From Synergistaceae bacterium (GTDB lineage Bacteria > Synergistota > Synergistia > Synergistales > Synergistaceae), in the NCBI GenBank assembly GCA_030523725.1, contig JAUNHV010000010.1:1-50491 (forward strand): 50,491 nucleotides of DNA, given 5' to 3'. A model generated the notes under the pieces. It was not told where the DNA came from, did no database searches, and saw nothing but the letters and a program-made list of their open reading frames with translations. Position numbers and translations under genes: made by a program. Below, piece after piece: positions 1 to 17,653 of this stretch; position 1 is the stretch's first letter, and the number at the start of each line of letters is the position of its first letter.

Positions 1-3000
1 ACGTCAGTGGTGACGCCCGCCCGAGCGGATGAACCCCTCAAGGCTGGTCTGATAAGGATAGACCAGATATTGCAGATGGGAGATCCTGCAAAAAAAGGCA
101 TAGGCGGTGGGGCGAGTAAACGCTATGGAGCTGCCGCAGACATGGCTAAGACGATTTACTTTGGCAAACAGAATGGTAGTGGACTTCTATGGCGAGTGCT
201 ATCGACGAATGAAACTACCACGGCAGGAGCAGGAACCGGAGTTCTGTTATTGTCAGACAACTTGCTAGCATATTCAAAATTTAATACCATATATACTAAT
301 CTATGGTATAAGTCCACAGTTCGCGGACTTCTACAAGAAATTTATACCAAAGCACATACTTCTAGTCCTGAGCCTAGTAGTGGAGTAACATTTGACGGAA
401 GAGAAAAAGCACAAATAGCGGAAACGCAATTAACAGATGTTGAGACAGGTGGTAAACCAGATTATCTGTTTCTATTGAGCAATAAAGAAGTGGCTGGAAA
501 AACTGACAAATCCAAAAGATATGGTTTCACAGATGACCTCAGTAGAAGAGCAATCGCTGCTCGTGCATATCGCACTAGCTCTTGGTGGTTGCGCTCGCCT
601 GGCTCTTATCGTACCCGTGCGTTCGCTGTCGACTTTGACGGCGGAGTCGGTGAGGACAGAGTGTACTCCTACAGTTTTGCCGTTCGCCCGGCTTTCAATC
701 TGAATCCAGAATCGGTTTTGTTTTTATCCGCCGCCGTAGGCGGCAAGAGAGCTGAGGCTTGCGTTGGAAAGTTTGGGGTCGATAATACCTATGATGGAAA
801 AGATGGTTGGAAGGTAACCTTGCGCGACGATAATATCAAAACACCTACAGTGGGAGCTGTTGAAGTTGTTAGCGCAAAATGGGATGTCAATGACCTTGCT
901 GCAGTAGCAATAAAAGAAGGAAAAATTATAAATATTTCAGACCAAACTCTCACTGGAAAACTAAAGATTTCCTACAGTGATGCCACTCCGGATGGAAAGA
1001 ATATGTATGTATCTGCATTGCTCAAAGACGGTGATACCTTTGTGAATTATGCTAAGGTGAATGCAATTACATCAAAAAAAGAAATATCAGGCACAAAATT
1101 TGTTGATATAACTAACGTAATGCCCGAGAGCGGAAGCAAGGATTATACCCTATATATTTATGGTGAACAGGAAAACGGAGATAAAAACACGGACTATGCC
1201 TCTTCTTTTAGTGTGCATACTGTTACGATACCTGCGAAACCGGCTGTGGTTAAGGTTTTAAATCATGCTAAATACGGTGCATCAGGCCTTACAGTGAATC
1301 TTTCAAACAACTGTGAGTTGGGCTTTGAAGGTGGCAAATATGACACAAAAATAATAGTTGGAGAAGGTGAGAAGGGTAAAATTACGGCAGATAAGAATGG
1401 TACAACCCTTACTGGTGATGTCACACTCGGTAACAAAGCAGTTCTCACAATGGGAGGCAAATTTACACTTGAAAATAATCTCTTCAAGCTTCAAAGTGAC
1501 CTAGCTCAAGACAAAGCTGGTAAGATTGAAGCAGAAGATCTAACAATTTCAGGTAACTTAAAGATTCAGTTTATGAATGACCCCATTTTTGCTACGGGGA
1601 TTGAAAGTGTTATGGGCAAAAGGATTCCGATACTTACCGTTACTAATGGCATTGATGCATCAAAAATGAATAAAATAATCGGTCTTTCTATACGTGGAAC
1701 TAGGGGAATTTTTACGCCTACATTGGTATTAGGTGGAGACAAAACTATATACCTGACAGGTTTTACTTTCGGATTTGACCGCAGGTATCAGTTGGTTAGG
1801 GAATCTGCTTGGCAATCAGGTTCGCCAATTCCTTATGGCAGCGTTGTGGAAAAGGATACGGATGGAAAGCTTTACACTTATAAGGTGAAGACTGGAGTTG
1901 GTCCTTGGGGACGTGTCGGGCGTGAGCTGGATAAGGGCGAAGGTGTTACACCAGAGACAAAGAGGTTTGTTTGGCACACAGCGGATCCAAGCGCGGAAAA
2001 GGAAGCAGACAAGAGAGACCACCTGAAGGAAGTGACAGATACTGCAGCAGATGCCGACATCGTTGTTACCTACAATGCGGCAAAGAAAACGGATCAACAT
2101 AAAGAAAGCTTTGTGGATGCTTTGGATGAGAATAAGCCCTTTACCGCTTTTGTGGGAGCGAAGAGTAACACAGGTGGGCGTGGCGGTGCAGTCTACCTTA
2201 ATAAAGTTAAATACGAGGAAGTCAAAGCAGATTTCGTACGTAACTGTGCAGTAATAAATGACCAAGACGTTATGTATGGAGGAGGAGCGATTTTTAACAA
2301 TGAAGGACAAATAAACGCGATTATAGGGGATTTCATAGGCAACTACGCAGACGCAATAGACGCAATATTTGAAAATACTATAACGAATGGGGGGGCGATT
2401 GATAACGGACCAAATTCATCAATTGGAGCTATCACGGGAGATTTCATAGGCAACTATGCTACTAGTGGATACTTGGCGAGTGGAGGAGCTATTTATAACC
2501 ATAATGCGATGGATATCTTAGAAGGCGACTTTATAGGCAACTACACATCAGTAACGAGCAATGCCTCCGGTTCAGCCTACGGTGGGGCAATTTATAACTC
2601 TGGAAGGCTAGGCAGTATCACGGGGAACTTTATAGGCAACTACGCAAAAAATACAGGAAATAGTGGTGAAGCCACAGGAGGAGCGATTAATAACGTTAGG
2701 ATACTAGAGAGTATCACAGGGAACTTTATAGGTAACTACGCAAAAAATTCAGGAAATGGTGGTTCCGCCTTAGGGGGAGCGATTTATAATAATGAGGGCA
2801 CAACGAGTATTGTTGCTGGTGCACAGGATATTCTCTTTAGCGGTAACTATGTGTCTGCAACAAATGGAAAAGCGCTAGGTGGTGCAATCTACAACTCTGG
2901 CACTGGCGATAACGGGATATATTTGCGTGCTGCGGAAGGCAAGTCCATCACCTTTGAGGGTAGAGACGGAGACCCAATAGTGGATAGCGTCCATAATGAA

Positions 3001-6000
3001 GGAAATCTTTCCATAAACGAAGCAGATGGCGAAAAAACCTACACTGGTACGGTCAACTTTGCCAGGATAACAGATGCAGCCACACCAAAAGGCACCATGA
3101 CCATCAATGGCGGAATTGTTAATATTGCTGGAGACGTTACACAGAATAAAATAACAATAGCCGATGGTGCAATGCTGAATCTGCCAGGCACAGGTAAAAT
3201 TGTAAGAACAGCTATAGAAAACAGCGGCGTTCTCAAGGGCAATTTGAATCAGAGCAATAATTTAATCGTTAAGGACAGCGGTGTGTGGCACCCTGTCTTT
3301 ACGGAACACGCGTCAAGCAACACCGTAAATGCCACCTTGTCAAACGGCGGCACGATAGACATTGCATATGACACCTTGACTAAAGACGCAAAAGGCAAAT
3401 TTACTCCTACATATAATAAGAAGACACAAATGGACGCCGCAACAGTGTCAAGCCTTACGATAAACGGCGGAGTCTTGAAAATACAGAGTGCCTTGGCAAA
3501 ATTGGATGCAGCAGCCAGTGAAGTTAGCAAGGCGGACAGTCTTAGAGTGACCGACTTGACACTTAATGGCAAGCTAAAAATTCAGGTTATGTATGACCCC
3601 TCCTTTGCTACGGCTACTACGGCTACAGGTGATATTATCGGCAAACAAATAGCAGTGCTAACTGCCACTAATGTTACTGGTGACTTGTCAAGTGCGGTAG
3701 CAGTCCTTGCCACGACGTATGATGGGAAGAGATTCTGCCCAACGCTTGCTTTTGATGAGCAAAACCAAAACATTTATTTAACCGGCTTTACATTTAAGGA
3801 ACTTTCACATAAATATATGCTAGAGAAGGGGGCTAGTTGGCCTACAGGTGTCACTGCTCCCTATGGCAGTGTTGTGAAAAATGACACGGACGGGAAATCT
3901 TACCTCTATAAGGTCAGGACGTATAAAGACGCTGCCGGATATACTGCTTGGGGACATTGGACAACAGATAAGGGTGGCGAAAACAAGGGCGAAAAATATT
4001 ACGTTTGGCACACGGGAAATGGAACAGATGCAGATCCAAACAGATTAAGTGAAAAATTGGAAGATGGCACGGACGTAACAGACAAAAATGCAGACATCGT
4101 TGTGTATTATGATAAGAGCAGTCTTGCCGATAGACGCAAAGAAGCATATAACAATGAGACCGCTTTTGTAGGTATAGCGACTACTACCCAGTCCCTTGGA
4201 GGTGCACTTAAAAATACTGCAATAATAGATTCAATGAATGCAGATTTTATAGGCAACTATGTTATAGGCAACTATGTATCGTTAATATCAGATCAGGTAC
4301 TAGGTGGTGCGATTTATAACGAATATGATAGTAAAATAGATACCTTAACAGGCGACTTTATAGGCAACTACGCATCAGGATCAAGCTATGCCTACGGTGG
4401 TGCAATTTATATATCACCATTCTCAGGCATAATGAGCACCTTAACAGGTGACTTTATAGGCAACTACGCATCGTCGGAACTTGAAGTAGTCGGTGGTGCG
4501 ATTTTTAACGGTGATTATGTCGAGATAGGGAGCATCAAAGGAGATTTTATAGGCAACTACGTCTATAATAACAAACTAGCACCAGAGGAAGTGATCTATA
4601 AAGCATTAGGTCAGGGTGGTGCGATTAATAACAATGGAACAATAACTAACTTAACAGGCGACTTTATAGGCAACTACGCCTATAGCAATATCATAGTAGC
4701 ATCATGTTTGGAGGAAATGTCCGGGGGAGAAGGAGTAATGTGTCGAGGTGGTGCGATTAATAACGGTGGAACAATAATTAACTTAACAGGCGACTTTATA
4801 GGCAATTATGCATCATCATCAGGATCATCCTCTGCACAAGGTGGTGCGATTTATAACACGGGAACTGTTACATTCCTTGCTGAAGATAAAGATATCCTCT
4901 TCAGTGGTAACTATGTTAGTAGTGGAGACTCAACAAAGGCGCTAGGTGGTGCAATTTATAATGGTAATGAGATGTATTTGCGTGCTGCGGAAGGCAAGTC
5001 TATCACCTTTGAGGGTAGAGACGGAGACCCAATAGTTGATAGTGTACACAATGAAGGAAATTTTTCCATAAACGCACCAGATGGTGAAAAAACCTACACT
5101 GGTACGGTCAACTTTGCCACGGTAACTGGTGCAAATGGTAAAATATATATCAATGGTGGAACGGTTAACCTGCATGGTGCAGTTACGCAGCAAGAAATTG
5201 AAAATAATGCTTTCTTGAACTTTGAGAAAGGTTCAACTTTAGCAAGCAACATAACAATGAAAGAAGGAAGCAAAGGGGTAACAAACTTCAATACAGATTT
5301 TACAGTTGGAGAAAATCAAAAAATTACCCAAGACACGATAAACATAGGAGATGCCGGAAAGTCAGCAACCGTAACAACCAACATAGATAACCTCAACGCT
5401 AGTAGCATAAAAGTGGGGAGTGCGGGTGTGCTAAATCTTACAAGTGGCATGATTGGCAAAGCAATAGCCAACAGTGGTACAGTAGCAGCAAAAAGCGGAG
5501 CAGTAGTTAATAGCACAATTACAAACACACCTGCAACTGGCAAGGTAAAGCTCGAGAAAGATTCGTCATTTGGAGCAAGTGGTAAGGTTACAGGTGGAGA
5601 ACTTGTATTCGAAGAGGGAACTGAATTTAAACCGGCCAACATAGAGAATATAAAAAATCTAACTTCAAATGGTGCAAAATTAAACTTTGCAGCAAAAATA
5701 GTAGATGAAGATGGAGGCAAGGCAATTTTTGAAAATGGCCGCATGCTAAATGTGGTTGGTAAAGCAACAGGACAGCTCAATCTACATGATATCAACCTTA
5801 CGGGAGTAGATCCAGCTGCTTGGCTGCCATATGAAGAGAATAAAAAGCAAATGCAGTATCTAAGCGCCAGTGTGATTTCTGCTACTGGCACAGATATGAC
5901 AATAGCAAATTCATTAACAGCTGTGCTTGGTAACACTGGTACATCCTTTACCTTCAAACAAGCAGTAGATGGAACAGGAAAGAAAATTATTGGTTGGATG

Positions 6001-9000
6001 GATGTAATAGCAGGTAATTCATACACCTTGTCGGAGGTAATTGCAGGCGATACGTGGGAAAAAGATGGTAAAGATTATGATGGCAAAACTCATAAAGCAG
6101 GAGAGCTCATTAACGCTACAGATTCTGCCTATGCACGTGGTGTAAATGTCTACACGTTGCAAGATAGTGGTAACAATACCTACATTGCGTCTCGTGGCTT
6201 AGGTCAACTGAAATGTGCAGAGGATACAGCTTCTGCATCTCGTACCATGATAATAAAAAGCGGTGCTAATGGTAAAGGCACAGTTAAGCAGATGAAATTC
6301 TATGGGACAGGTGCTACCCCAACTCGCAGTGATGATAGAGGAGGTTTGATTATTGGCGATACGTCAAAACCAACTCAGACACAGGAAGTTGAGGTTCAGA
6401 ATGTAGCAGAGATAGCCAAATGGAAGGATCATAAAGCCTTCACAGTTAATTCCAATGGCGAGCTAAGCTTTAGCGGAGAAGATGTTAATCTCACACTCTT
6501 GGACGGAATAGTTAATAACGATGGTGGAACGGTTACATTTAATCAGAATACAATTTTGAAATTTGCAGATGACGATGTAAGCAAAGCTGGTAAACTTTCA
6601 GGAGCAGGAAGTTATATTAACAAGAGAACAATGACAATTGCTGATATGGCAAAACTTGACGTAAGTGAGCTTACAAACAAAGGTATAGTGAACCTTGAAG
6701 ATAATGGCACACTTGGTGTAAAGATAGCTGGAGGCACCTTTAACATAAAAGAAAATGTAACGTCACAGGCAGACAAAATTGCGGGTGACACCAACACAAT
6801 AGCAGCATCCAAGACCCTTACCATAACAAGCGGTACACTTGCCAGAGCTGTAAGTGGTGACGGAACAGTAAAGTTCACTGGTGGAGATATTGCAGCGGAT
6901 GTTACAAGCAAAGTGCTTGAAATTGCAGGACACGTTACGGCAAAGGCAGACAATATTAAGGGAACAACTAATAAGATAACAAGTGGAACATTAAAGCTTA
7001 CTAGTGGAATCGTACTAAATGGACAGGTAACAGGTAATGGAACACTTGAATTTGCAACGGATATTAGGACAAACGTAGCCAATGTTGCAGCCGATACAAA
7101 CATGGTAGACAGCGGAGTAACCCTTACACTTACAGGAACAGACACAGCAACCGGCACGCTTAATAAAGTAATAAGCGGAGAGGGAAACCTTGTAGTAGAT
7201 GGAACAGTAAGCTCAGGTGTTGCAAACTTTGCGAATTCTGGTGCACTTTCTGTTAGGAGTGGAACACTTGAGTTGACGAGCGGCACACTTACCAAAGCGA
7301 TAGACAATGCTGGCACAGTGAAACTTGCAGGAGCAAATCTTGGAGGAGCTTATGTAACAAAAGGCACGCTTGAATTTGCGCAAAGCATTTCTACAAACGC
7401 TTCATATGTTGCAGCAGCAACAAACAGGGTAGACAGTGGGGTAACACTTACACTCACAGGAACAGACACAGCAACCGGCACGCTTAGTAAGGTAATAAAT
7501 GGAGATGGAAACCTTGTAGTAGATGGAACGGTAAGCTCAGATGTTGCAAACCTTGCGAATTCTGGTGCACTTTCTGTTAGGAGTGGAACACTTGAGCTAA
7601 CAAGCGGCACACTCACCAGAGCGATAGACAATGCTGGCACAGTGAAGCTTGCAGGAGCGAATCTTGATGGAGCCTACGTAACAAATGGAACGCTTGAATT
7701 TGCAAAAGACTTAGCAATCAACGCAAACTACGTAGTAGCAACAACGAATATAGTTGATAATGGTGTAACGCTTACGTTGAATGATGGAACTCTCTCAAAA
7801 GCCGTTGCAAATAGTGGCACAGTGAAGCTTGCGGGAGCAAACCTTGGTGGAGCCTACATAACAAAAGGCACGCTAGAATTTGCAAAAGATTTGGCAATTA
7901 ATGCAAACTACGTAGCAGCAACAACGAATATAGTTGATAATGGTGTAACGCTTACCCTGAACGATGGAACTCTCTCAAAAGCCATAACAAATAGTGGAGT
8001 CGTGAAGCTTGCGGGAGCAAACCTTGGTGGAGCCTACGTAACAAAAGGCACGCTAGAATTTGCAAAAGATTTGGCAATTAATGCAAACTACGTAGTAGCA
8101 ACAACGAATATAGTTGATAATGGTGTAACGCTTACCCTGAACGATGGAACTCTCTCAAAAGCCATGACAAATAGTGGAGTAGTGAAGCTTAATGGAGCAA
8201 CGCTAGGCGAAGCACATGTAACAAGTGGCACGCTAGAATTTGCAAAAGATTTGGCAATTAATGCAAACTACGTAGTAGCAACAACGAATATAGTTGATAA
8301 TGGTGTAACGCTTACCCTGAACGATGGAACTCTCTCAAAAGCCATGACAAATAGTGGAGTAGTGAAGCTTGCAGGAGCGGCGCTAGGCGAAGCACATGTA
8401 ACAAGTGGCACGCTAGAATTTGCAAAAGATTTGACAATCAATGCTAATTATGTGGCAGCAACAACGAATATAGTTGATAATGGTGTAACGCTTACCCTGA
8501 ACGATGGAACTCTCTCAAAAGCCATGACAAATAGTGGAGTAGTGAAGCTTGCAGGAGCGGCGCTAGGCGAAGCACATGTAACAAGTGGCACGCTAGAATT
8601 TGCAAAAGATTTGACAATCAATGCTAATTATGTGGCAGCAACAACGAACATAGTTGATAATGGTGTAACACTTACGTTGAATGATGGAACGCTCTCAAAA
8701 GCCATAACCAACAATGGCATAGTTAAACTTGCCGGAGCAAATCTTGGAGGAGCGTACGTAACAAATGGTATGCTCGAATTTGTGTCAAATCTTGTGACAA
8801 ACGCTTCATATGTTGCAGCTGTGACCAACTTGGTTGACAGCGGAGTAACGCTTACACTCAATGAAGGTACACTTACCAAAGCTGTAATGGGCGACGGGAC
8901 AGTGAAATTCACGGGAGGAGAGCTTGCAGCAGATGTTACAAGCTCTCAGCTTGAATTTGCAGGTGATATAACAGCAAATGCGGATAAAATTCAAGGAATA

Positions 9001-11925
9001 ATAAGCAACAAGGTTACAAGCGGAACTCTTGAACTTATTTCCGGTACACTAACTACAGCCTTAGCAAACAGTAGTAAGGTGACGATGCAAAACGGAGTAA
9101 AGCTAAATAGCACAGTTACAAATGAAACAGCGACAGCAAGTACAAAACTTGCGAGTGGTGCGTCATTTGGGGTAAACGGTAAGGTTACAGGTGGCGAGCT
9201 TGTATTCGAAGAGGGAACTGAATTTAAACCGGCCAACATAGAGAATATAAAAAATCTAACTTCAAATGGTGCAAAATTAAACTTTGCAGCAAAAATAGTA
9301 GATGAAGATGGAGGCAAGGCAATTTTTGAAAATGGCCGCATGCTAAATGTGGTTGGTAAAGCAACAGGACAGCTCAATCTACATGATATCAACCTTACGG
9401 GAGTAGATCCAGCTGCTTGGCTGCCATATGAAGAGAATAAAAAGCAAATGCAGTATCTAAGCGCCAGTGTGATTTCTGCTACTGGCACAGATATGACAAT
9501 AGCAAATTCATTAACAGCTGTGCTTGGTAACACTGGTACATCCTTTACCTTCAAACAAGCAGTAGATGGAACAGGAAAGAAAATTATTGGTTGGATGGAT
9601 GTAATAGCAGGTAATTCATACACCTTGTCGGAGGTAATTGCAGGCGATACGTGGGAAAAAGATGGTAAAGATTATGATGGCAAAACTCATAAAGCAGGAG
9701 AGCTCATTAACGCTACAGATTCTGCCTATGCACGTGGTGTAAATGTCTACACGTTGCAAGATAGTGGTAACAATACCTACATTGCGTCTCGTGGCTTAGG
9801 TCAACTGAAATGTGCGGAGGATACAGCATCTGCATCTCGTTCCATGATAATAAAAAGTGGTACAAACGATGATGGTACAATCAAGCAAATGAAATTCTAT
9901 GGGACAGGTGCAGCTGTTACTAGCAATGAAGACAGAGGAGGGCTGATTATTGGTGATACTTCTAAACCGCAACAAACACAAAATGTTGAGGTTCAGAATA
10001 TTGCAGAGATAGCCAAATGGAAGGATCATAAGGCCTTCACAGTTAATTCCAATGGAGAGCTAAGTTTTAACGGAGAAGATGTTAAGCTCACACTCTTGGA
10101 CGGAATAGTTAATAACGATGGTGGAACGGTTACATTTAATCAGAATACAATTTTGAAATTTGCAGATGAAGATACAAAGAAAGCAGGTACATTGTCAGGC
10201 AAAGGCAGCTACATAAACAATGCATTAATGACAGTTACAGATGTAGCCAAACTTGCAATGACGGGGCAAAAGGGACTTGAAAATATAGGTACGGTGATTT
10301 TGACGGGAGGAACACTTGCAAAGGGCGTAACGGTAACGGGGACAGGTTTAACGCTAATAGATGGAGTAGTAAAATCCGATACCAAGATAGCCAACATGAT
10401 AACGATAAATCCAGATAAATCACTTGAGATTTCAGCAGATAATGTTGGAGGAGAAGTAACAAACAACGAAGGAACACTTATCTTGAATGGTGGCACCTTA
10501 TCCCAGCAGGTGAATACTGCACTAGAGGGACAGATTGGTACGATAGATCTCCAGGCAGCAACAGAAATTGCAGCTAAAGTAAAAAATCAGAACATAAAAG
10601 CTACGAAAGGCTATTCTAAAGTTTCAGTTGAAAGCTATATAGCTAACAATGATTTAACCTTTAACGGTGGTGGTTTTGACTTTAGAGATGACAAGGTGTC
10701 AAATTACGTGGTCAAAAATATTAACCTTACTGATAATGGTAATTTGAAGCTTGATGTAGACCTTGCAAATAAATTGATGGATACCCTTAATGTTGCCGAT
10801 GGAGGAGGCGTTACCGGGACAGGAAAACTTCATGTCACTGCCCTTACACTTTTATCAGACGCAAAACAGAACAAAACAAATATTGCCTTCTCAGAGACAG
10901 ACGCCTTGAAGGGACATGTCGTGTCAGACGTTACACATGTAGCATCTGACATGTGGAAATACCTCGTTGCCTATGATAAAGAGACTGGTGAATTTGCCTT
11001 CACAAAGAGTGGCAGAAGTGAACCAGACAAGCCAGAGGTTAGCGAAACAGTAATGTCTATTTCTGATACCGCTCAGGCACTAAATGTGTCATGGTTGAAT
11101 AATATTAACAACCTACAAAAACGCCTTGGTGACCTCCGTGGAGGAGAAGCAAGCAACACAGGTTGGGCACGCTTCCAGAGGAGCAATGATGATGTGAATA
11201 CTGGCAGAAAGGCCAACGTATCTGGTAACCTATATCAGCTTGGTTATGACATTGCCTTAAAGAGTGATGCAGCCTCTCGCGGTTACTTCGGTCTCTCCCT
11301 TGAAAGATTTGACGGAAGCCAGTCATATAAGATTGGTGGTGGCGATGTAAAATCCACATCACTTAGCGCATACTACACAAAGATTTATGACAGTGGTCAC
11401 TACTTTGACTTCATCTTCCGTTATGGTAGATATGAAAGCGACACAACAAGCTACGACGCAGGACTTTCCACAAAACTCGACTACGGTATGAACGGAGTAA
11501 CCTTATCCGGTGAATATGGATATAGAGCAAATATTGGTAAGAATGGATTCTACTTCGAGCCACAGGCAGAAGTTATCTATGGTTATTTAGCTGGAGCAAA
11601 GAAGACAAGTAGCAGAGGCATCTTGGCAGACATAGATAGCACAAACCACTTTGTGACAAGACTTGGTGTTGCCTTGGGTAAGAAGGTTAAAAACTTTAAT
11701 TACTACTTAAGAGGCAGCTACTATCATGACTTTGCTGGTTCAACAAACATCTTGTATGGAGATGCATCATACAAACAAGACAGTGCGAGAAACTGGTGGG
11801 AACTTTCCCTCGGTGGAGGCTGGAACATGACAGACGCAAGTTACTTCTATGCAGAACTCACCAAACACTTCAAGGATGTAAGTAACTCGATAAACTTTAA
11901 TTTAGGTTTCCGCTTTACACTGTAA
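1..11925 (+). CDS. Giant Pmp-like autotransporter adhesin, 5' end outside window
   Basis: Type V secreted surface protein: the passenger would be exported through a C-terminal outer-membrane barrel. The frame is open to base 1, and the first codons read like the end of a signal peptide (TPARA then DEP, an A-x-A cleavage site), so the real start lies upstream; the GTG at 7 is probably not it. Numbering from that GTG, residues about 40-240 resemble DUF6273 (SWWLRSPG near 190, then FAVRPAFNLN). Residues about 490-1730 hold two Pmp-like modules rich in GGAIYN and FIGN. Residues about 1860-3400 are repeat-built, with predicted beta-helix character. From about residue 3715 (WARFQRS) to the end lies an autotransporter barrel of alternating aromatic strands, ending FRFTL, not with the usual final aromatic residue. 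Adhesion or immune exposure is inferred. The export class is firm; the ligand is unknown. Confidence 0.9.
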   Translation, partial: TSVVTPARADEPLKAGLIRIDQILQMGDPAKKGIGGGASKRYGAAADMAKTIYFGKQNGSGLLWRVLSTNETTTAGAGTGVLLLSDNLLAYSKFNTIYTNLWYKSTVRGLLQEIYTKAHTSSPEPSSGVTFDGREKAQIAETQLTDVETGGKPDYLFLLSNKEVAGKTDKSKRYGFTDDLSRRAIAARAYRTSSWWLRSPGSYRTRAFAVDFDGGVGEDRVYSYSFAVRPAFNLNPESVLFLSAAVGGKRAEACVGKFGVDNTYDGKDGWKVTLRDDNIKTPTVGAVEVVSAKWDVNDLAAVAIKEGKIINISDQTLTGKLKISYSDATPDGKNMYVSALLKDGDTFVNYAKVNAITSKKEISGTKFVDITNVMPESGSKDYTLYIYGEQENGDKNTDYASSFSVHTVTIPAKPAVVKVLNHAKYGASGLTVNLSNNCELGFEGGKYDTKIIVGEGEKGKITADKNGTTLTGDVTLGNKAVLTMGGKFTLENNLFKLQSDLAQDKAGKIEAEDLTISGNLKIQFMNDPIFATGIESVMGKRIPILTVTNGIDASKMNKIIGLSIRGTRGIFTPTLVLGGDKTIYLTGFTFGFDRRYQLVRESAWQSGSPIPYGSVVEKDTDGKLYTYKVKTGVGPWGRVGRELDKGEGVTPETKRFVWHTADPSAEKEADKRDHLKEVTDTAADADIVVTYNAAKKTDQHKESFVDALDENKPFTAFVGAKSNTGGRGGAVYLNKVKYEEVKADFVRNCAVINDQDVMYGGGAIFNNEGQINAIIGDFIGNYADAIDAIFENTITNGGAIDNGPNSSIGAITGDFIGNYATSGYLASGGAIYNHNAMDILEGDFIGNYTSVTSNASGSAYGGAIYNSGRLGSITGNFIGNYAKNTGNSGEATGGAINNVRILESITGNFIGNYAKNSGNGGSALGGAIYNNEGTTSIVAGAQDILFSGNYVSATNGKALGGAIYNSGTGDNGIYLRAAEGKSITFEGRDGDPIVDSVHNEGNLSINEADGEKTYTGTVNFARITDAATPKGTMTINGGIVNIAGDVTQNKITIADGAMLNLPGTGKIVRTAIENSGVLKGNLNQSNNLIVKDSGVWHPVFTEHASSNTVNATLSNGGTIDIAYDTLTKDAKGKFTPTYNKKTQMDAATVSSLTINGGVLKIQSALAKLDAAASEVSKADSLRVTDLTLNGKLKIQVMYDPSFATATTATGDIIGKQIAVLTATNVTGDLSSAVAVLATTYDGKRFCPTLAFDEQNQNIYLTGFTFKELSHKYMLEKGASWPTGVTAPYGSVVKNDTDGKSYLYKVRTYKDAAGYTAWGHWTTDKGGENKGEKYYVWHTGNGTDADPNRLSEKLEDGTDVTDKNADIVVYYDKSSLADRRKEAYNNETAFVGIATTTQSLGGALKNTAIIDSMNADFIGNYVIGNYVSLISDQVLGGAIYNEYDSKIDTLTGDFIGNYASGSSYAYGGAIYISPFSGIMSTLTGDFIGNYASSELEVVGGAIFNGDYVEIGSIKGDFIGNYVYNNKLAPEEVIYKALGQGGAINNNGTITNLTGDFIGNYAYSNIIVASCLEEMSGGEGVMCRGGAINNGGTIINLTGDFIGNYASSSGSSSAQGGAIYNTGTVTFLAEDKDILFSGNYVSSGDSTKALGGAIYNGNEMYLRAAEGKSITFEGRDGDPIVDSVHNEGNFSINAPDGEKTYTGTVNFATVTGANGKIYINGGTVNLHGAVTQQEIENNAFLNFEKGSTLASNITMKEGSKGVTNFNTDFTVGENQKITQDTINIGDAGKSATVTTNIDNLNASSIKVGSAGVLNLTSGMIGKAIANSGTVAAKSGAVVNSTITNTPATGKVKLEKDSSFGASGKVTGGELVFEEGTEFKPANIENIKNLTSNGAKLNFAAKIVDEDGGKAIFENGRMLNVVGKATGQLNLHDINLTGVDPAAWLPYEENKKQMQYLSASVISATGTDMTIANSLTAVLGNTGTSFTFKQAVDGTGKKIIGWMDVIAGNSYTLSEVIAGDTWEKDGKDYDGKTHKAGELINATDSAYARGVNVYTLQDSGNNTYIASRGLGQLKCAEDTASASRTMIIKSGANGKGTVKQMKFYGTGATPTRSDDRGGLIIGDTSKPTQTQEVEVQNVAEIAKWKDHKAFTVNSNGELSFSGEDVNLTLLDGIVNNDGGTVTFNQNTILKFADDDVSKAGKLSGAGSYINKRTMTIADMAKLDVSELTNKGIVNLEDNGTLGVKIAGGTFNIKENVTSQADKIAGDTNTIAASKTLTITSGTLARAVSGDGTVKFTGGDIAADVTSKVLEIAGHVTAKADNIKGTTNKITSGTLKLTSGIVLNGQVTGNGTLEFATDIRTNVANVAADTNMVDSGVTLTLTGTDTATGTLNKVISGEGNLVVDGTVSSGVANFANSGALSVRSGTLELTSGTLTKAIDNAGTVKLAGANLGGAYVTKGTLEFAQSISTNASYVAAATNRVDSGVTLTLTGTDTATGTLSKVINGDGNLVVDGTVSSDVANLANSGALSVRSGTLELTSGTLTRAIDNAGTVKLAGANLDGAYVTNGTLEFAKDLAINANYVVATTNIVDNGVTLTLNDGTLSKAVANSGTVKLAGANLGGAYITKGTLEFAKDLAINANYVAATTNIVDNGVTLTLNDGTLSKAITNSGVVKLAGANLGGAYVTKGTLEFAKDLAINANYVVATTNIVDNGVTLTLNDGTLSKAMTNSGVVKLNGATLGEAHVTSGTLEFAKDLAINANYVVATTNIVDNGVTLTLNDGTLSKAMTNSGVVKLAGAALGEAHVTSGTLEFAKDLTINANYVAATTNIVDNGVTLTLNDGTLSKAMTNSGVVKLAGAALGEAHVTSGTLEFAKDLTINANYVAATTNIVDNGVTLTLNDGTLSKAITNNGIVKLAGANLGGAYVTNGMLEFVSNLVTNASYVAAVTNLVDSGVTLTLNEGTLTKAVMGDGTVKFTGGELAADVTSSQLEFAGDITANADKIQGIISNKVTSGTLELISGTLTTALANSSKVTMQNGVKLNSTVTNETATASTKLASGASFGVNGKVTGGELVFEEGTEFKPANIENIKNLTSNGAKLNFAAKIVDEDGGKAIFENGRMLNVVGKATGQLNLHDINLTGVDPAAWLPYEENKKQMQYLSASVISATGTDMTIANSLTAVLGNTGTSFTFKQAVDGTGKKIIGWMDVIAGNSYTLSEVIAGDTWEKDGKDYDGKTHKAGELINATDSAYARGVNVYTLQDSGNNTYIASRGLGQLKCAEDTASASRSMIIKSGTNDDGTIKQMKFYGTGAAVTSNEDRGGLIIGDTSKPQQTQNVEVQNIAEIAKWKDHKAFTVNSNGELSFNGEDVKLTLLDGIVNNDGGTVTFNQNTILKFADEDTKKAGTLSGKGSYINNALMTVTDVAKLAMTGQKGLENIGTVILTGGTLAKGVTVTGTGLTLIDGVVKSDTKIANMITINPDKSLEISADNVGGEVTNNEGTLILNGGTLSQQVNTALEGQIGTIDLQAATEIAAKVKNQNIKATKGYSKVSVESYIANNDLTFNGGGFDFRDDKVSNYVVKNINLTDNGNLKLDVDLANKLMDTLNVADGGGVTGTGKLHVTALTLLSDAKQNKTNIAFSETDALKGHVVSDVTHVASDMWKYLVAYDKETGEFAFTKSGRSEPDKPEVSETVMSISDTAQALNVSWLNNINNLQKRLGDLRGGEASNTGWARFQRSNDDVNTGRKANVSGNLYQLGYDIALKSDAASRGYFGLSLERFDGSQSYKIGGGDVKSTSLSAYYTKIYDSGHYFDFIFRYGRYESDTTSYDAGLSTKLDYGMNGVTLSGEYGYRANIGKNGFYFEPQAEVIYGYLAGAKKTSSRGILADIDSTNHFVTRLGVALGKKVKNFNYYLRGSYYHDFAGSTNILYGDASYKQDSARNWWELSLGGGWNMTDASYFYAELTKHFKDVSNSINFNLGFRFTL
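1480..3155 (+). repeat. Pmp-like passenger module, copy 1
   Basis: In-frame module inside the autotransporter. It opens with a segment containing GNLKIQFMNDP, passes a linker with PYGSVVEKDTDGK and FVWHT, then has about eight GGA[IV] motifs alternating with five [GN]FIGNY motifs and one FSGNY, and closes with AEGKSITFEGRDGDP. GGAI plus FxxN tetrapeptides define the Pmp repeat of chlamydial polymorphic membrane proteins. A second copy follows at 3470-5190. Module boundaries are approximate. Confidence 0.75.
3470..5190 (+). repeat. Pmp-like passenger module, copy 2
   Basis: Second copy of the module at 1480-3155, in the same order: GKLKIQVMYDP, PYGSVVKNDTDGK, YVWHT, eight GGA[IL] motifs alternating with six FIGNY motifs and one FSGNY, then AEGKSITFEGRDGDP. 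The GGAI/FxxN part has diverged in repeat number and spacing, while the closing segment (about 4978-5120) is nearly identical to 2930-3070. This suggests duplication followed by local gene conversion or strong constraint. Confidence 0.75.
5602..6218 (+). repeat. 617-bp perfect direct repeat, copy 1
   Basis: Every base I compared matches 9199-9815, at a constant offset of 3597 bases. Similarity continues at lower identity on both sides (about 5572-6624 against 9169-10221) with no length change. The offset is 1199 codons, so recombination between the copies would keep the autotransporter frame. Confidence 0.93.
7039..7686 (+). repeat. Two 324-bp tandem units in autotransporter
   Basis: Two in-frame units of 108 codons (7039-7362 and 7363-7686), each starting GTLEFA. 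They are the 60-residue unit of the following array plus a 48-residue insertion containing GTDTATGTL and SGALSVRSGTLELTSGTL. The insertion was therefore either present before, or lost during, expansion of the shorter units. Confidence 0.85.
7687..8766 (+). repeat. Six 180-bp tandem units in autotransporter
   Basis: Six in-frame units of exactly 180 bases (60 residues), starting at 7687, 7867, 8047, 8227, 8407 and 8587. Each carries GTLEFAKDL, TTNIVDNGVTLTLNDGTL and VKLAGA, with slight changes in the first and last. A degenerate seventh runs to about 8880. Two adjacent stretches, 8277-8468 and 8457-8648, are identical, which points to recent unequal exchange or slippage. Confidence 0.92.
9199..9815 (+). 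repeat. 617-bp perfect direct repeat, copy 2
   Basis: Second copy of the repeat at 5602-6218. The first mismatch downstream is at 9816 (against 6219), and the nearest upstream mismatches are at 9198 and 9195. The flanks diverge at mostly silent or conservative sites, so the perfect core looks like a recent conversion tract inside an older duplication of about 1 kb. Confidence 0.93.
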
Positions 11926-12081: not shown

Positions 12082-12125
12082 ATAGACACTAAAGATTGCT
12101 TGTGGGTGCTTTTGAGGAGAGCTAC

Positions 12126-12896
12126 ATGATAGAACAAAAACAAAAAAATAACGAGGCAAGAGAAATAATTTTTGGTAGAAATGCAGTGCTTTCTCTATTA
12201 GAGAGTAGAGCAGAAACCGTGACGCGGGTTCTTGTGTCAAAGACTATAAAGCCACACATAAAAAGTGAAGTTCTTGATGCTTGTAGAGCAAGTAAAATCC
12301 CATTTGACCTGGTGGAAAATTCATTGTGCGAAAAATATGCGCCGAGTCAAAATCATCAAGGAGTAGTAGCCTTTGCCACACCAGTTGCAAGTTTGGATTT
12401 GGAAGATCTTATAAAGATTTTGCCTCCTACTCCAAACAAGTGTTTGTTGATTGTTTGTGACCACTTGGAAGACCCACATAACCTTGGTGCTATCATTAGA
12501 ACAGCAGAAACGGCAGGAGCAAGCGGAGTAATTATTCCAAAACGTGGCGGAGTTTCTGTTACTGGTGTTGTTATTAAGGTTAGCGCTGGAGCTGCAACGC
12601 GAGTGCCAGTTGCGCGTATTACAAATGTGGCAAACACATTGAAACGCTTACAGGAAGAAAATTTCTGGGTAACAGCACTCGATATGGATGGGCGAGACAC
12701 TCTCTTTAAGGAAGATCTGCCACCCAGGTCTGTCTTGGTCGTTGGTGCAGAAGGAAATGGCGTGTCACAAGCCGCAAAGAAATCTTGTGATGATGTGCGC
12801 TTTATTCCAATGGCTGGAAACGTAGGTTCACTTAATGCTTCTGTTGCCGCTGCTTTGGCAATTTATGAATGGGTAAGAAGCACAAACAACACTTAA
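12126..12896 (+). CDS. rlmB: 23S rRNA 2'-O-ribose methyltransferase, TrmH/RlmB type
   Basis: SpoU-class methyltransferase. RlmB in the strict sense methylates a guanosine ribose in 23S rRNA (G2251 in E. coli) using S-adenosylmethionine. The protein has 256 residues: an N-terminal substrate-binding domain (about 10-90; FGRNAVLSLLE) and a knotted catalytic domain with NLGAIIRTAE near 118 and GSLNASVAAALAIYE near 234, the SAM-binding knot motifs. I chose ATG 12126 because GAGGAG lies six bases upstream; an in-frame TTG at 12096 has no ribosome site. It is a single-gene unit between two strong hairpins. The exact target base cannot be read from the sequence. Confidence 0.92.
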   Translation: MIEQKQKNNEAREIIFGRNAVLSLLESRAETVTRVLVSKTIKPHIKSEVLDACRASKIPFDLVENSLCEKYAPSQNHQGVVAFATPVASLDLEDLIKILPPTPNKCLLIVCDHLEDPHNLGAIIRTAETAGASGVIIPKRGGVSVTGVVIKVSAGAATRVPVARITNVANTLKRLQEENFWVTALDMDGRDTLFKEDLPPRSVLVVGAEGNGVSQAAKKSCDDVRFIPMAGNVGSLNASVAAALAIYEWVRSTNNT

Positions 12897-12910
12897 TAAC
12901 GAAGTATGCA

Positions 12911-12955
12911 AAAAATTGATTAACATGGTTCGCCATGTTAATCAATTTTTTTTAG
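12911..12955 (+). terminator. Intrinsic terminator of rlmB with UUCG loop
   Basis: A perfect 18-bp stem, AAAAATTGATTAACATGG (12911-12928), a TTCG loop, then the exact complement (12933-12950) running into a T tract. It lies 14 bases after the rlmB stop and insulates the ribosomal cluster. Confidence 0.95.
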
Positions 12956-13141
12956 TTTTTAATTATTTTTTTTGATTCTGTCAAGTATATTTACCCTGAC
13001 AACACTTTTTGCTATATATTGTTTGTAAAGCTTGTAATTTTCACTGTGGAACCAGTTTTTATTAAATTTTTTGCAAATAAAAAAATTTGAAAAAAATTAA
13101 AAAAACACCCGAAAATTTTTGTTATTTTTCGTTCCGCCCCC
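12956..13141. other. AT-rich gap before str operon promoter
   Basis: No convincing gene. About 186 bases, very rich in A and T. The runs of A and T at about 13060-13130 sit directly upstream of the -35 box and look like an UP element for the RNA polymerase alpha CTD (inferred from composition and position). Confidence 0.5.
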
Positions 13142-13169
13142 TTGACAGTCTAGCTTTTTTTGATATAAT
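13142..13169 (+). promoter_or_regulatory. Consensus sigma-70 promoter of str operon
   Basis: TTGACA (13142-13147), a 16-base spacer, then TATAAT (13164-13169): both hexamers match the housekeeping consensus. Expected transcription start is near 13176. It is the only strong promoter seen upstream of the ribosomal gene series and should drive rpsL-rpsG-fusA-tuf and probably much of what follows. Confidence 0.88.
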
Positions 13170-13175
13170 TGCGAC

Positions 13176-13485
13176 CGTGTGTCTGAAAGGCTTTTCCGAC
13201 ACGCATTGTCTTTTTCTGTCTTTTTTTACAAGAGAAAAACTTGACATTGCTAACGTTAATGTCAAGATTTCTATTAGGACAGTTTGAAGTAGTGGAGGTT
13301 ATTACGGCTTGCTTTGTTGACAAGGGCAAGGCAAGAAAACCAGGTTTTTCTGTTATGGCAAAAGACAGCGCTCGGCAACAACAAATACCGACGCCGAGTC
13401 TAGAAGAAAACAATCCGTAAACAAATTCCGCTACAAAGACAATCCTAAAAATATATTTTCCTAAATTTGGAAGGAGGAAACTTTT
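13176..13485 (+). promoter_or_regulatory. Long 5' leader of str operon with inverted repeats
   Basis: About 310 bases between the predicted start site and rpsL, with no recognisable gene. It holds an inverted repeat, CTTGACATT (13240-13248) and AATGTCAAG (13258-13266), around AACGTT, and a short stem CTCGGC (13371-13376)/GCCGAG (13393-13398). A leader this long before rpsL suggests growth-rate or autogenous control, but no known ribosomal-protein leader motif was recognised. Confidence 0.45.
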
Positions 13486-13857
13486 TTGCCAACAATTCAA
13501 CAACTTATTCGCAATGGCAGGGAGGAAAAGAAAAAGCGCTCAAGTGCTCCTGCTCTTATGGAAAACCCACAGCGCAGAGGCGTTTGCACTCGTGTTTACA
13601 CGGTTACGCCAAAGAAACCTAACTCTGCTCTCCGTAAGGTCGCTCGTGTGCGCCTTACAAACGGTATTGAAGTCACAGCCTACATTCCAGGCGAGGGTCA
13701 CAACCTTCAGGAACACTCAGTCGTGCTTGTCCGCGGCGGTCGTGTGAAGGACTTGCCAGGTGTTCGTTATCACATTATTCGTGGTGCATTAGACTGTGGT
13801 GGAGTCGAGAAACGTCGTCAGAGCCGTTCGCTCTACGGTGCTAGAAAACCTAAATAA
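13486..13857 (+). CDS. rpsL: 30S ribosomal protein S12
   Basis: Decoding-centre protein of the small subunit, first gene of the str operon. 123 residues, the usual length. [10 protein letters not shown] and the [10 protein letters not shown]...[12 protein letters not shown] region are intact, including the lysines whose mutation gives streptomycin resistance in other bacteria, so the wild-type sensitive form is present. Translation starts at TTG 13486, set by AAGGAGGA at 13471-13478; a TTG start is uncommon for such a highly expressed gene. rpsG follows after 18 bases. Confidence 0.98.
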
Positions 13858-13875
13858 CATTGGGAGGAATTAAGA

Positions 13876-14346
13876 ATGTCTCGTAAAGGTCACATTAGAA
13901 AACGCATTTCAGCTCCCGATTCAGTTTATGGAAATCCAGATATCACAAGATTTATCAACTGCCTCATGCTTGATGGTAAAAAGAGCGTTGCAGAGAAAAT
14001 CTTCTATGGAGCACTGGAGTTGGCTGCTGAAAGACTAAAAATGGAGTCAAAAGAAGTTTACGAAAAAGCAATGCAGAATGTTCGCCCATTGGTTGAGGTT
14101 CGTCCTCGCCGTGTTGGTGGTGCTACATATCAGGTTCCAACAGAAGTGAACCCAGAGAGAGCACAGGCATTGGCTGTTCGTTGGATTCTTAACAATTCAC
14201 GTTCCCGTAAAGGGATGCCAATGGTTGAACGCTTGGCTCGTGAATTTGGTGATGCCTGCAAGGGTGAAGGCGGTGCCGTGAAGAAGCGTGACGAAACGCA
14301 TAGAATGGCAGAAGCAAACAGAGCCTTTGCACACTATCGCTGGTAA
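13876..14346 (+). CDS. rpsG: 30S ribosomal protein S7
   Basis: Assembles the head of the 30S subunit by binding the 3' major domain of 16S rRNA and contacts E-site tRNA. 156 residues, normal length; MSRKGHIRKR at the start and the conserved VEVRPRRVGGATYQVP segment are present. ATG 13876 follows GGGAGGAA. In E. coli S7 represses its own operon by binding between rpsL and rpsG; that gap is only 18 bases here and shows no obvious mimic of the S7 site. Confidence 0.98.
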   Translation: MSRKGHIRKRISAPDSVYGNPDITRFINCLMLDGKKSVAEKIFYGALELAAERLKMESKEVYEKAMQNVRPLVEVRPRRVGGATYQVPTEVNPERAQALAVRWILNNSRSRKGMPMVERLAREFGDACKGEGGAVKKRDETHRMAEANRAFAHYRW

Positions 14347-14365
14347 TTGATTAGGTTAATTCGCT

Positions 14366-16432
14366 ATGGCAAATTACGATTTATCAAAGGTTAGAAATAT
14401 CGGTATTGCTGCTCACATTGACGCAGGAAAGACCACAACAACAGAAAGAATTTTGTTCTACACAGGCAGAAAGCACAAAATCGGTGAAACACACGAAGGT
14501 GCTGCAACAATGGACTGGATGGAGCAGGAAAAGGAACGTGGTATCACAATCACTTCCGCTGCTACAACCTGCTTCTGGAAAGACTGCCTAATCAACATCA
14601 TCGACACCCCAGGTCACGTTGACTTCACAGTTGAAGTTGAACGCTCCATGAGAGTCCTTGATGGTGCTGTTTCCGTTTTCTGTGCTGTCGGTGGTGTTGA
14701 ACCACAGTCAGAAACAGTTTGGAGACAGGCTGATAAATACCGCGTTCCACGTGTTGCCTTTGTCAACAAGATGGACAGAGTCGGTGCAAACTTCTTGAAT
14801 GTTGTCGAACAGATGAAGAAACGCCTTGGAGCAAAGGCAATTCCTCTTCAGTTGCCAATCGGTGCTGAGGACACATTCGTCGGAATGGTTGACCTTATTA
14901 CACAAAAGGCTCACATCTATGATGATGAGCTTGGAACAGAGTTCCACGAAACTGATATTCCTGCAGACATGAAGGATGAAGCAGAAGTTGCACGTATGGA
15001 GCTTATTGAAGCACTTGCTGACCATGATGATGAGTTGGCAGAGCGTTACCTTGACGGTCAGGACATTACTGTTGAGGAAATCAAAAGAGTTATCAGAAAA
15101 GCAACAATCGCTTTGGAAATTGTTCCTGTCCTTTGTGGTTCAGCATTTAAGAATAAGGGCGTTCAGCCAGTGCTTGACGCAGTAGTTGACTACTTGCCAA
15201 GCCCAATTGATATGCCAGACACCGTTGGTGTTGACCCAGATCACACAGAGAATGAAATTGCAATAAAGCCAAAGATGGATGAGCCATTTGCGGCACTTGC
15301 ATTCAAAATCATGGTTGACCCATTCGTTGGTCGCCTTGCATTCTGCCGTGTTTATTCTGGTACACTCGAGAGTGGAACTACTATATATAATACAAATACT
15401 CGCAAACGCGAGAGAGTTGGTAGAATTCTTCAAATGCACGCAAATAAGCGTGAGGAGCTCACATCAACTCACGCTGGTATGATTGTCGCAATTCCAGGGT
15501 TGAAGCAGGTTAGAACTGGTGATACCCTTTGCGACGAAAAACACCCAGTTCTCTTAGAAAACCTTATTTTCCCAGAGCCAGTTATCTCACTTTCTGTTGA
15601 ACCAAACAGTAAAGCAGATCAAATTAAATTGGCAAAGGGACTTGAGGCATTGTCAGAAGAAGACCCAACGTTCCGCGTTTCTGTTAACGAAGATACAGGT
15701 CAGACACTCATTTCTGGTATGGGTGAGCTTCACTTGGAAATCATCGTTGATAGACTTAGAAGAGAATTCAACGTGGAAGTTACCGTTGGTAAGCCACAGG
15801 TTTCATACAGAGAAGCAATAAAGCAGCCAGCAAGAGCTCAAGGCAAATTTGTCCGCCAGTCTGGTGGTAAAGGCCAGTATGGTGACGTTGTCCTTGAAAT
15901 CGAGCCACTACCAGATGGCAAGGGCTTTGAGTGGGAAGATAAAATCGTCGGTGGTGCAGTTCCAAAAGAATATATCCCAGCAGCTCAAAAGGGTGTTGAG
16001 GATGCTTTGAATACAGGTATCTTGGGTGGTTACCCAGTTATCGGAGTCAAGGTTGCAATCGTTGACGGAAGCTACCACGAAGTCGATAGCTCTGAAATGG
16101 CATTCCGCATTGCTGGTTCTATGGCAATCAAGGAAGCACTTGCAAAGGCAAATCCAGTGCTTATGGAACCACTTATGTCTGTTGAAGTCGTCGTCCCAGA
16201 AGAATACATGGGAGACGTTATCGGAGACCTTTCAAGCCGTAGAGGTAGAGTGCTAGAGATGGGCGTTCGTGCTAACGCAAGAGTCGTTAAAGCATATGTT
16301 CCACTAGCAGAAATGTTTGGTTATGCAACAGACCTTCGTAGCCGTACATCAGGACGCGGATCTTACACAATGACTTTTGACCACTATGAGGAAGTTCCAA
16401 AGAGCGTGGCAGAAGCCGTTTTGAAAAAATAA
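14366..16432 (+). CDS. fusA: Translation elongation factor G
   Basis: GTPase that drives translocation and, with RRF, ribosome recycling. 688 residues with the five-domain layout of canonical EF-G. G1 [11 protein letters not shown] near residues 16-26, switch [10 protein letters not shown] near 80, NKMDRVG near 134. The C-terminal domains carry [10 protein letters not shown] and [16 protein letters not shown]. Only one copy is seen in the window. It lies 19 bases after rpsG and 30 before tuf, the classical order. Confidence 0.98.
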
Positions 16433-16462
16433 AATTTTGAAATTTGAAAAGAGGTAATTATT

Positions 16463-17653
16463 ATGGCAAAAGAGAAATTTGTACGTAACAAACCACACTT
16501 GAACATCGGAACCATTGGTCACATTGACCATGGTAAGACAACAACAACAGCCGCTATCACGAAGACGCTTGCCCGTCACGGTCAGGCAGACTTTACACCA
16601 TTCGACATGATAGACAAGGCTCCAGAAGAAAGAGAGCGCGGCATTACAATCAACATTGCACACGTTGAGTATGAAACAGAGAAGCGTCACTATGCACACA
16701 TTGACTGCCCAGGCCACGCTGACTACATCAAGAACATGATCACCGGTGCAGCTCAGATGGACGGTGCAATCCTTATTGTTTCTGCAGCTGATGGCCCAAT
16801 GCCACAGACACGTGAGCACGTTCTTCTTGCTCGCCAGGTTAACGTTCCAGCACTAGTTGTTTTCATGAACAAGTGCGATATGGTTGACGACCCAGAGCTT
16901 CTTGAGCTCGTTGAAATGGAAATCAGAGACCTTCTTACAAAGTACGAATTCCCAGGAGATGAAATTCCTATAGTTCGTGGTTCAGCATTGAAGGCATTGG
17001 AAACAGATACCGATAATGAGTGGACAGATAAAATCTTCGAGCTTATGAAGGCATGCGACGATTACATTCCAGATCCAGAGCGCGCAATCGACGAACCATT
17101 CCTTATGCCAATCGAAGACGTTTTCACAATCACAGGTCGTGGAACAGTTGTTACAGGGCGTGTTGAGAAGGGTATCATCAAGCCAGGTGACGAAGTTGAA
17201 ATCGTTGGATTGAAAGACACAAGAAAGTGCGTAGCGACATCACTTGAAATGTTCCGTAAGATATTGGACGATGCAGAAGCAGGTGACAACGTTGGAGCAC
17301 TACTCCGTGGTATAGACAAGACGGATGTTGAGCGTGGACAGGTATTGGCAAAGCCAGGCAGCATTCACCCACACACCCACTTCAAGGGAGAGGTTTATGT
17401 TTTGAAGAAAGAGGAAGGCGGACGCCACACCCCATTCTTCAGCGGCTACAAGCCACAGTTCTATTTCCGTACAACAGACATCACAGGCGAGATCAAGCTT
17501 GCTGAAGGTGTTGAAATGGTAATGCCAGGAGACAACAGCACATTTGAAGTTACATTGATTGCTCCAATAGCAATGCAGGTTGGACTTCGCTTCGCAGTTC
17601 GTGAAGGCGGTAGAACAGTCGGTGCTGGTGTCGTAACTGAAATCATTGACTAA
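16463..17653 (+). CDS. tuf: Translation elongation factor Tu
   Basis: GTPase that delivers aminoacyl-tRNA to the ribosomal A site. 396 residues. [15 protein letters not shown] near residue 19, [20 protein letters not shown] near 81 and NKCDMVDD near 136 form the G domain; barrel domains 2 and 3 follow ([11 protein letters not shown], then [10 protein letters not shown] at the end). ATG 16463 follows GAGGTAA. It ends the str part; rpsJ begins 20 bases later, so str and S10 genes are probably co-transcribed. Confidence 0.98.

Follow-up and report, generated by a model that had tools for sequence, protein, structure and literature searches.

The protein encoded at the beginning of the window, by which we mean the whole stretch of 50,491 nucleotides analysed here, is in our reading a type V adhesin with a lectin-like DUF6273 tip that undergoes, or recently underwent, diversification by a diversity-generating retroelement (DGR), and we give this reading a probability of about 0.86. 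The protein would be built from a signal peptide, an N-terminal DUF6273 head, a long beta-solenoid passenger and a C-terminal barrel, which would carry the passenger across the outer membrane and leave the head displayed at the far tip. In type V secretion the passenger emerges C-terminus first, and the N-terminus finishes at the tip. The last part of the head would be a variable repeat (VR) written by the DGR: a reverse transcriptase (RT) with Avd would copy a template repeat (TR), mutating its adenines in the process, and the resulting cDNA would take the place of the VR. AAY codons in the template would thereby become NNY codons on the binding face, with the framework codons staying fixed. 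One template type would have served six paralogous heads of this genome (G000). For the window head we infer the tip position, the lectin fold and ligand binding, and the proposal in the original prediction that the DUF6273 head is the binding part probably holds.

The window is the whole of contig G000:C11 from a 1.55-Mb genome of 15 contigs, the assembly of which is rated 100% complete. A giant autotransporter ORF on the forward strand (1 to 11925; 3,974 codons plus stop) is open from base 1, its 5′ end being cut by the contig edge. Comparison with paralogues revealed that the contig begins within the part coding for the signal peptide, most of which is missing; the remnant at positions 1 to 30 on the forward strand (TSVVTPARA/D, with a putative cleavage site) was recognised by eye against 5′-complete paralogues, and an N-terminal signal peptide is visible by eye in the paralogues C9, C4R and C4L. 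The head at positions 241 to 705 matches the profile of DUF6273 (PF19789), published as C-type-lectin-like (PMC10743442), with an E value of 6.9e-13 in the whole protein and of 3.3e-14 in residues 1-420 (53.6 bits, cut-off 23.5). The C-terminal translocator, an autotransporter beta-domain at positions 11164 to 11859, was identified by TIGR01414 autotrans_barl (E 4.5e-40, 138 bits, cut-off 16) and by PF03797, which scored 90.1 bits (E 2.5e-25, cut-off 26) on the C-terminal 274 aa alone and was not listed when the whole 3,974-aa protein was the query. By this C-terminal beta-domain the protein is a type V autotransporter. The original prediction was thus borne out in describing a single ORF of nearly 4000 residues with a DUF6273-type head and a type V beta-barrel translocator. 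Within the passenger, tandem repeats of 324 and 180 nt occupy positions 7082 to 8782 of the same strand. Two further passenger copies (5581-6660 and 9178-10257) have 360 residues each, 333 of them identical, and just 2 base differences across the first 630 nt, so they reflect recent internal duplication or conversion. A SpoU-family rRNA methylase gene (12096-12896) comes next downstream of the giant ORF, followed by EF-G (14366) and EF-Tu (16463), which places core translation genes (within 12096-17653) beside a giant variable surface gene.

The window protein belongs to a family of at least ten DUF6273 proteins in this genome, nine of which were found as six-frame matches and the tenth by scanning singly an ORF on C13 (1,000 aa, with a barrel also inside). 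PF03797 has 15 matches in the genome, and the window barrel has 12, eight of them (the window counted) 92-100% identical. DUF6273 and PF03797 share one frame in seven of the ten cases (C14, C11, C9, C2 twice, C4 and C13). The DUF6273 ORF on C6 is interrupted at a G9 tract and a second ORF there carries the barrel, C4L has a related C-terminus unrecognised by PF03797, and searches with the window barrel and PF03797 found no barrel for the C5 protein. The largest paralogue, a 6,336-aa ORF on C10 (L218, L030), carries the common barrel; it gave no DUF6273 match, and no such head could be seen by eye. Contigs break at the 5′ ends of DUF6273 genes in five places (C11, C14, C9 and both ends of C4), and C4R, C9 and C6a share an upstream stretch of roughly 350-480 nt with 92-97% identity; these observations suggest shared promoters and assembly collapse. 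The G9 tract (G000:C6:14722-14730; L024:4723-4731) lies at the frame break between ORFs of 860 and 1,618 aa, and a G12 tract precedes the C5 DUF6273 gene by about 150 nt. The genome has only seven distinct G/C tracts of at least 9, and the G9 and G12 tracts are possible sites of slipped-strand phase variation. Four of the seven tracts (C6:11664, C6:69933, C7:129 and C15:1) form part of variants of one repeated element, in which a CCCTTGCGGCGCAAGGG-type stem precedes poly-G; three of the four lie near contig ends.

The original prediction missed that the end of the head carries what looks like the DNA signature of a DGR variable repeat. This VR spans 33 codons from LRSP to AVR (589 to 687, forward strand; search-pattern core 619-642). 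When the heads were aligned as DNA from WWLRSP to VRPA, six of the ten (window, C14a, C9, C6a, C4R and C4L) had a common framework with mostly NNY codons between, which in most copies reads GCG TTC NNT GTC NNC NNT NNC GGC NNN GTC ... GTG NNC NNC NNC NNT NNT GCC GTT CGC; the other four (C5, C2a, C2b and C13) lack the exact framework. The derived pattern GCGTTCNNTGTCNNCNNTNNCGGC has six exact matches in the genome, every one within a DUF6273 head, and the reversed control pattern has none at up to one mismatch and two at up to two. Pairwise difference rates at codon positions 1, 2 and 3 were 0.44, 0.40 and 0.16 over the 31 codon columns of the VR, 0.41, 0.35 and 0.48 in the upstream head, and 0.10, 0.11 and 0.23 downstream. 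Among codon pairs encoding the same residue, synonymous differences were found in 10 of 137 in the VR, 336 of 907 in the upstream head and 36 of 273 downstream (VR against upstream, p 4.6e-14, for pairs that are not independent). Between the window gene and its paralogue C14a, 25 of 99 bases differ in the VR, 4 of 99 in the adjoining downstream stretch and 10 of 93 in the adjoining upstream stretch; the remainder of the upstream head is also variable (63 of 330). Repeated copying of an AAY-rich template would be expected to scramble the first two codon positions, largely preserve the third and leave the framework homogeneous, as is seen here. The VR part of the window head (residues 188-237) also matches a PHROG of Hoc-like phage head decoration (E 2.9e-5).

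A DGR cassette is present in the sister genus G014, where contig C88 (L168, 6,453 bases) carries an Avd-like ORF (275-697), a template, an RT ORF (992-2101) and a DUF6273 target ORF (2114-6451) in this order on one strand. The RT scored 69.2 bits with RVT_1 (cut-off 29.6), and the target has a signal peptide seen by eye, a DUF6273 head (58.6 bits, cut-off 23.5) and a passenger. The Avd-like ORF fell below the cut-offs of bAvd (5.8e-9, 36.8 bits, cut-off 40) and DivGenRetAVD (6.4e-11, cut-off 80), and it matched the PHROG 'Avd protein of DGR' at 1.8e-16. The TR is AAY-rich, its aligned part lies at L168:765-866, and its translation reads NNNGNSNWWLRSPGNNDNNAYNVNNNGNVNDNNNVNNDNNAARS. The cognate VR differs from the TR only at adenines, with 15 of 36 adenines and none of 72 other bases changed, which is the relation that marks a DGR target, observed directly in G014. 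The same alignment gave 19/36 adenines and 6/72 other bases for the L169 head on another contig. With stretches cut out by regular expressions, the TR differed from L171 at 23/38 adenines and 7/64 other bases; the bias was weak for L178 of genome G015 (22/36 and 21/63), and L174 had no adenine bias (15/38 and 29/64). Local alignments that include flanks gave changed adenines and other bases, respectively, of 26/51 and 22/94 for L170, 26/50 and 14/92 for L171, 27/50 and 17/89 for L172, 28/48 and 29/94 for L173, 1/14 and 9/33 for L174, and 9/18 and 12/44 for L175; summed over L168-L171, 95/201 adenines and 53/369 other bases were changed (p 4e-17). The C-terminus of the G014 target is 53% identical to L178 over 404 columns, and its last 31 residues are identical to the start of the PF03797 domain of L178 (E 1e-13). 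By this homology, rather than by a complete barrel, the G014 target would be an autotransporter. This target reaches the contig edge some 22 residues into the barrel, so that RT, VR and a whole barrel were not seen on one DNA piece. Two other bAvd matches in G014, on C54 and C95, were rejected as DGR parts, as the surrounding 2-kb stretches hold no AAY-rich template or RT ORF; they are presumably 23S intervening-sequence proteins, judging by eye. A second DGR with a DUF6273 target was located in another relative, G013 (L176, G013:C1:3135000-3146000), which has an Avd above the bAvd cut-off and an RT. The target there ends in an Ig-like part with a weak intimin match and Synergist_CTERM, not in a barrel, and its frame contains an internal TGA.

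The G014 template was overlaid codon for codon on five of the six VRs of the window genome (C9, two codons shorter, was excluded; the template, which is a codon longer than the VRs, was used with one codon left out). Adenine columns were variable in 31 of 36 cases and other columns in 13 of 63 (p 1.7e-10), which for the window family points only indirectly, via the template of the sister genus, to a VR written from adenines. The assembly of the window genome, rated 100% complete, gave no match to RVT_1 or bAvd, and none to the G014 RT protein at E values up to 10, although the last empty answer alone shows little. A search for a template in it gave no further framework copy, the only seventh match (2 mismatches) being the C5 head. 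The window gene is therefore DGR-marked and not part of a proven DGR, since RT, Avd and TR were not found in the same genome; the cassette either lies in unassembled sequence, sits on an element outside the bin or has been lost. Loss would mean that an ancestral DGR diversified the heads before RT, Avd and template disappeared, so that the six VRs were inherited frozen, and we give this nearly even odds: all three components were not found in an assembly rated complete, and Treponema denticola isolates with targets but neither RT nor TR are described in PMC4891356. Against it, the synonymous sites of the VRs are far more alike between paralogues than those of the rest of the head, which indicates that the VRs were rewritten recently compared with the time at which the heads diverged, and a cassette could hide at the five contig ends 5′ of DUF6273 genes. 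That the tips of this genome were all rewritten from one shared template as a combinatorial adhesin library, by machinery still operating from an unassembled or mobile locus, is a tentative reading that we regard as possible but somewhat doubtful. An origin of the variable stretch with no DGR in the lineage, through diversifying selection and gene conversion between paralogues, has in its favour that seven paralogue barrels are 92-96% identical to that of the window and three upstream regions 92-97% identical to one another, which makes exchange between copies likely. However, if selection were the only force at work, third bases should not be preserved beside scrambled first and second ones, and conversion should distribute variable codons blockwise. 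The sister genus, moreover, has a cassette with a homologous template, and we consider an origin without a DGR highly improbable.

It is also very unlikely that the window protein is a member of the chlamydial Pmp family carrying an unusual head, as the description 'Pmp-like' in the original prediction might be taken to mean. Chlamydial Pmp proteins combine GGAI/FxxN repeats with an autotransporter barrel in a paralogous family, and the window protein is like them in these respects; we know of no Pmp protein with a DUF6273 head or a DGR. Two stretches of such repeats lie on the forward strand at positions 2104 to 3003 and 4198 to 4959 (the latter residues 1400-1653). The whole protein contains 16 GGA[ILV] motifs (shuffled mean 1.2, maximum 6) and 22 FxxN motifs (shuffled mean 9.9, maximum 21; 500 shuffles each), an excess that favours the Pmp assignment and upholds one side of the description. 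On the other side, the best piece scored 20.5 bits with Chlam_PMP (PF02415; E 4.9e-4), 0.1 bit below the Pfam cut-off of 20.6, another piece scored 15.6, and neither Pfam nor NCBIfam scans listed another Pmp-type model, whether for the full-length protein or for pieces, which covered part of the passenger; the HMMER filters used can miss weak matches. Repeats of this type would equally suit other beta-solenoid autotransporters. Of the predicted three-part architecture, the DUF6273 head and the barrel therefore stand clearly above their curated cut-offs and the Pmp part is borderline. An AlphaFold2 model of the 300 residues encoded at 2104-3003 was all-strand and solenoid-like (pLDDT 73, pTM 0.80), in line with the predicted fold; Foldseek returned nothing for it at E ≤ 0.001 (best 0.26), and its non-significant list includes several solenoid proteins.

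For the head, the AlphaFold2 model based on 9 sequences was poor (pLDDT 42), and the VIA-align list obtained with it (best Z 4.0) is not interpretable, so that the absence of lectins from this list is uninformative about the fold. We infer a C-type-lectin-like head from the published fold instead of our own model: in PMC10743442, AlphaFold2 and DALI assigned phage DUF6273 to the C-type-lectin domain, the VR forming a hairpin at its surface. A profile of the heads found one relevant solved relative in the PDB, namely 9qa6 (2.1e-10), an IgA protease with an N-terminal DUF6273. This entry is probably ThomasA, the N-terminal domain of which is annotated as DUF6273 in PMC12402451, although '9qa6' does not occur in that text. 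The protease is a secreted M64 peptidase of a gut bacterium, unlike the window autotransporter, and DUF6273 is N-terminal in both. With the window head alone as the query, no relevant match was obtained in the PDB.

LapA is known as a type I secreted protein. The Pseudomonas LapA-like giant adhesin of 4,623 aa, reported as a DGR target in PMC6642488, resembles the window protein as a giant adhesin with variable repeats; unlike the window protein, it is not called an autotransporter, a word absent from PMC6642488. The gut-phage DUF6273 targets of DGRs (tentaclins in PMC10743442, and Faecalibacterium prophages in PMC11792537) share with the present system DUF6273 and an RT with Avd and template. 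The position of DUF6273 at the N-terminus agrees with tentaclins (PMC10743442), and that of the VR at the C-terminal end of DUF6273 agrees with the Faecalibacterium prophage targets, the VRs of which map to the C-terminus of this domain (PMC11792537). Those targets are phage proteins, the tentaclins with Ig-like stalks, whereas here the target would be a bacterial protein, an outer-membrane autotransporter thousands of residues long and one of several paralogous targets; the word autotransporter is absent from the texts of PMC10743442 and PMC11792537. Treponema denticola TvpA and the Legionella surface targets, as described in PMC4891356, are likewise bacterial surface C-type-lectin DGR targets, including remote ones, but they are mostly predicted lipoproteins without a type V barrel anchor, unlike the window protein.

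Within the phylum, DUF6273 was found in 34 of 185 genomes and 12 of 62 genera. Among the matches, only the window genome and G014 and G015 (one other genus) have frames that exceed 930 aa, although many assemblies are fragmented. Comparison of contigs and frame lengths across 52 family genomes located a DUF6273 head and a PF03797 barrel in one frame only in the window genome and on G015:C145. The family is probably Synergistota, as suggested by the Synergist_CTERM match in G013 (26 bits, cut-off 22.5). A search of genome contigs retrieved seven head relatives, titled Clostridia or Bacillota, a Coriobacteriaceae and a 'Candidatus Woodwardibium'. At up to one mismatch, the VR pattern also occurred in 12 of 51 family relatives (13 of 52 with the window genome) and the reversed control in 7; none of the matches in the other relatives lay in a DUF6273-like frame. 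Viral relatives were also sought with this pattern and the candidates rejected: of 64 stretches from viral_contigs, seven had a loose RSP, RPA or RPV tag in translation, none of them DUF6273-looking, and the remainder had no such tag. A tblastn search of the phages collection with the window head gave no match, and no viral relative of the G014 head was found. A search with the head alignment led by the window head found one viral relative, L187, whose own search retrieved itself alone.

DGRs generate targeted protein diversity on a very large scale; the targets known to us are chiefly proteins of phage tails or capsids, lipoproteins and pilins. The main text of a large survey (PMC8144416) contains none of the terms autotransporter, Synergist, adhesin or outer membrane, and in PMC4319957 DGR appears in the reference list only. 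The DGR reading suggests a possible function for the DUF6273 heads found in these genomes, for which mucus, host glycoproteins, other bacteria and phages are candidate ligands. Coupling a DGR to a type V secretion scaffold that is thousands of residues long, with several paralogous tips to rewrite, would give a bacterium a novel means of varying its contact surface.
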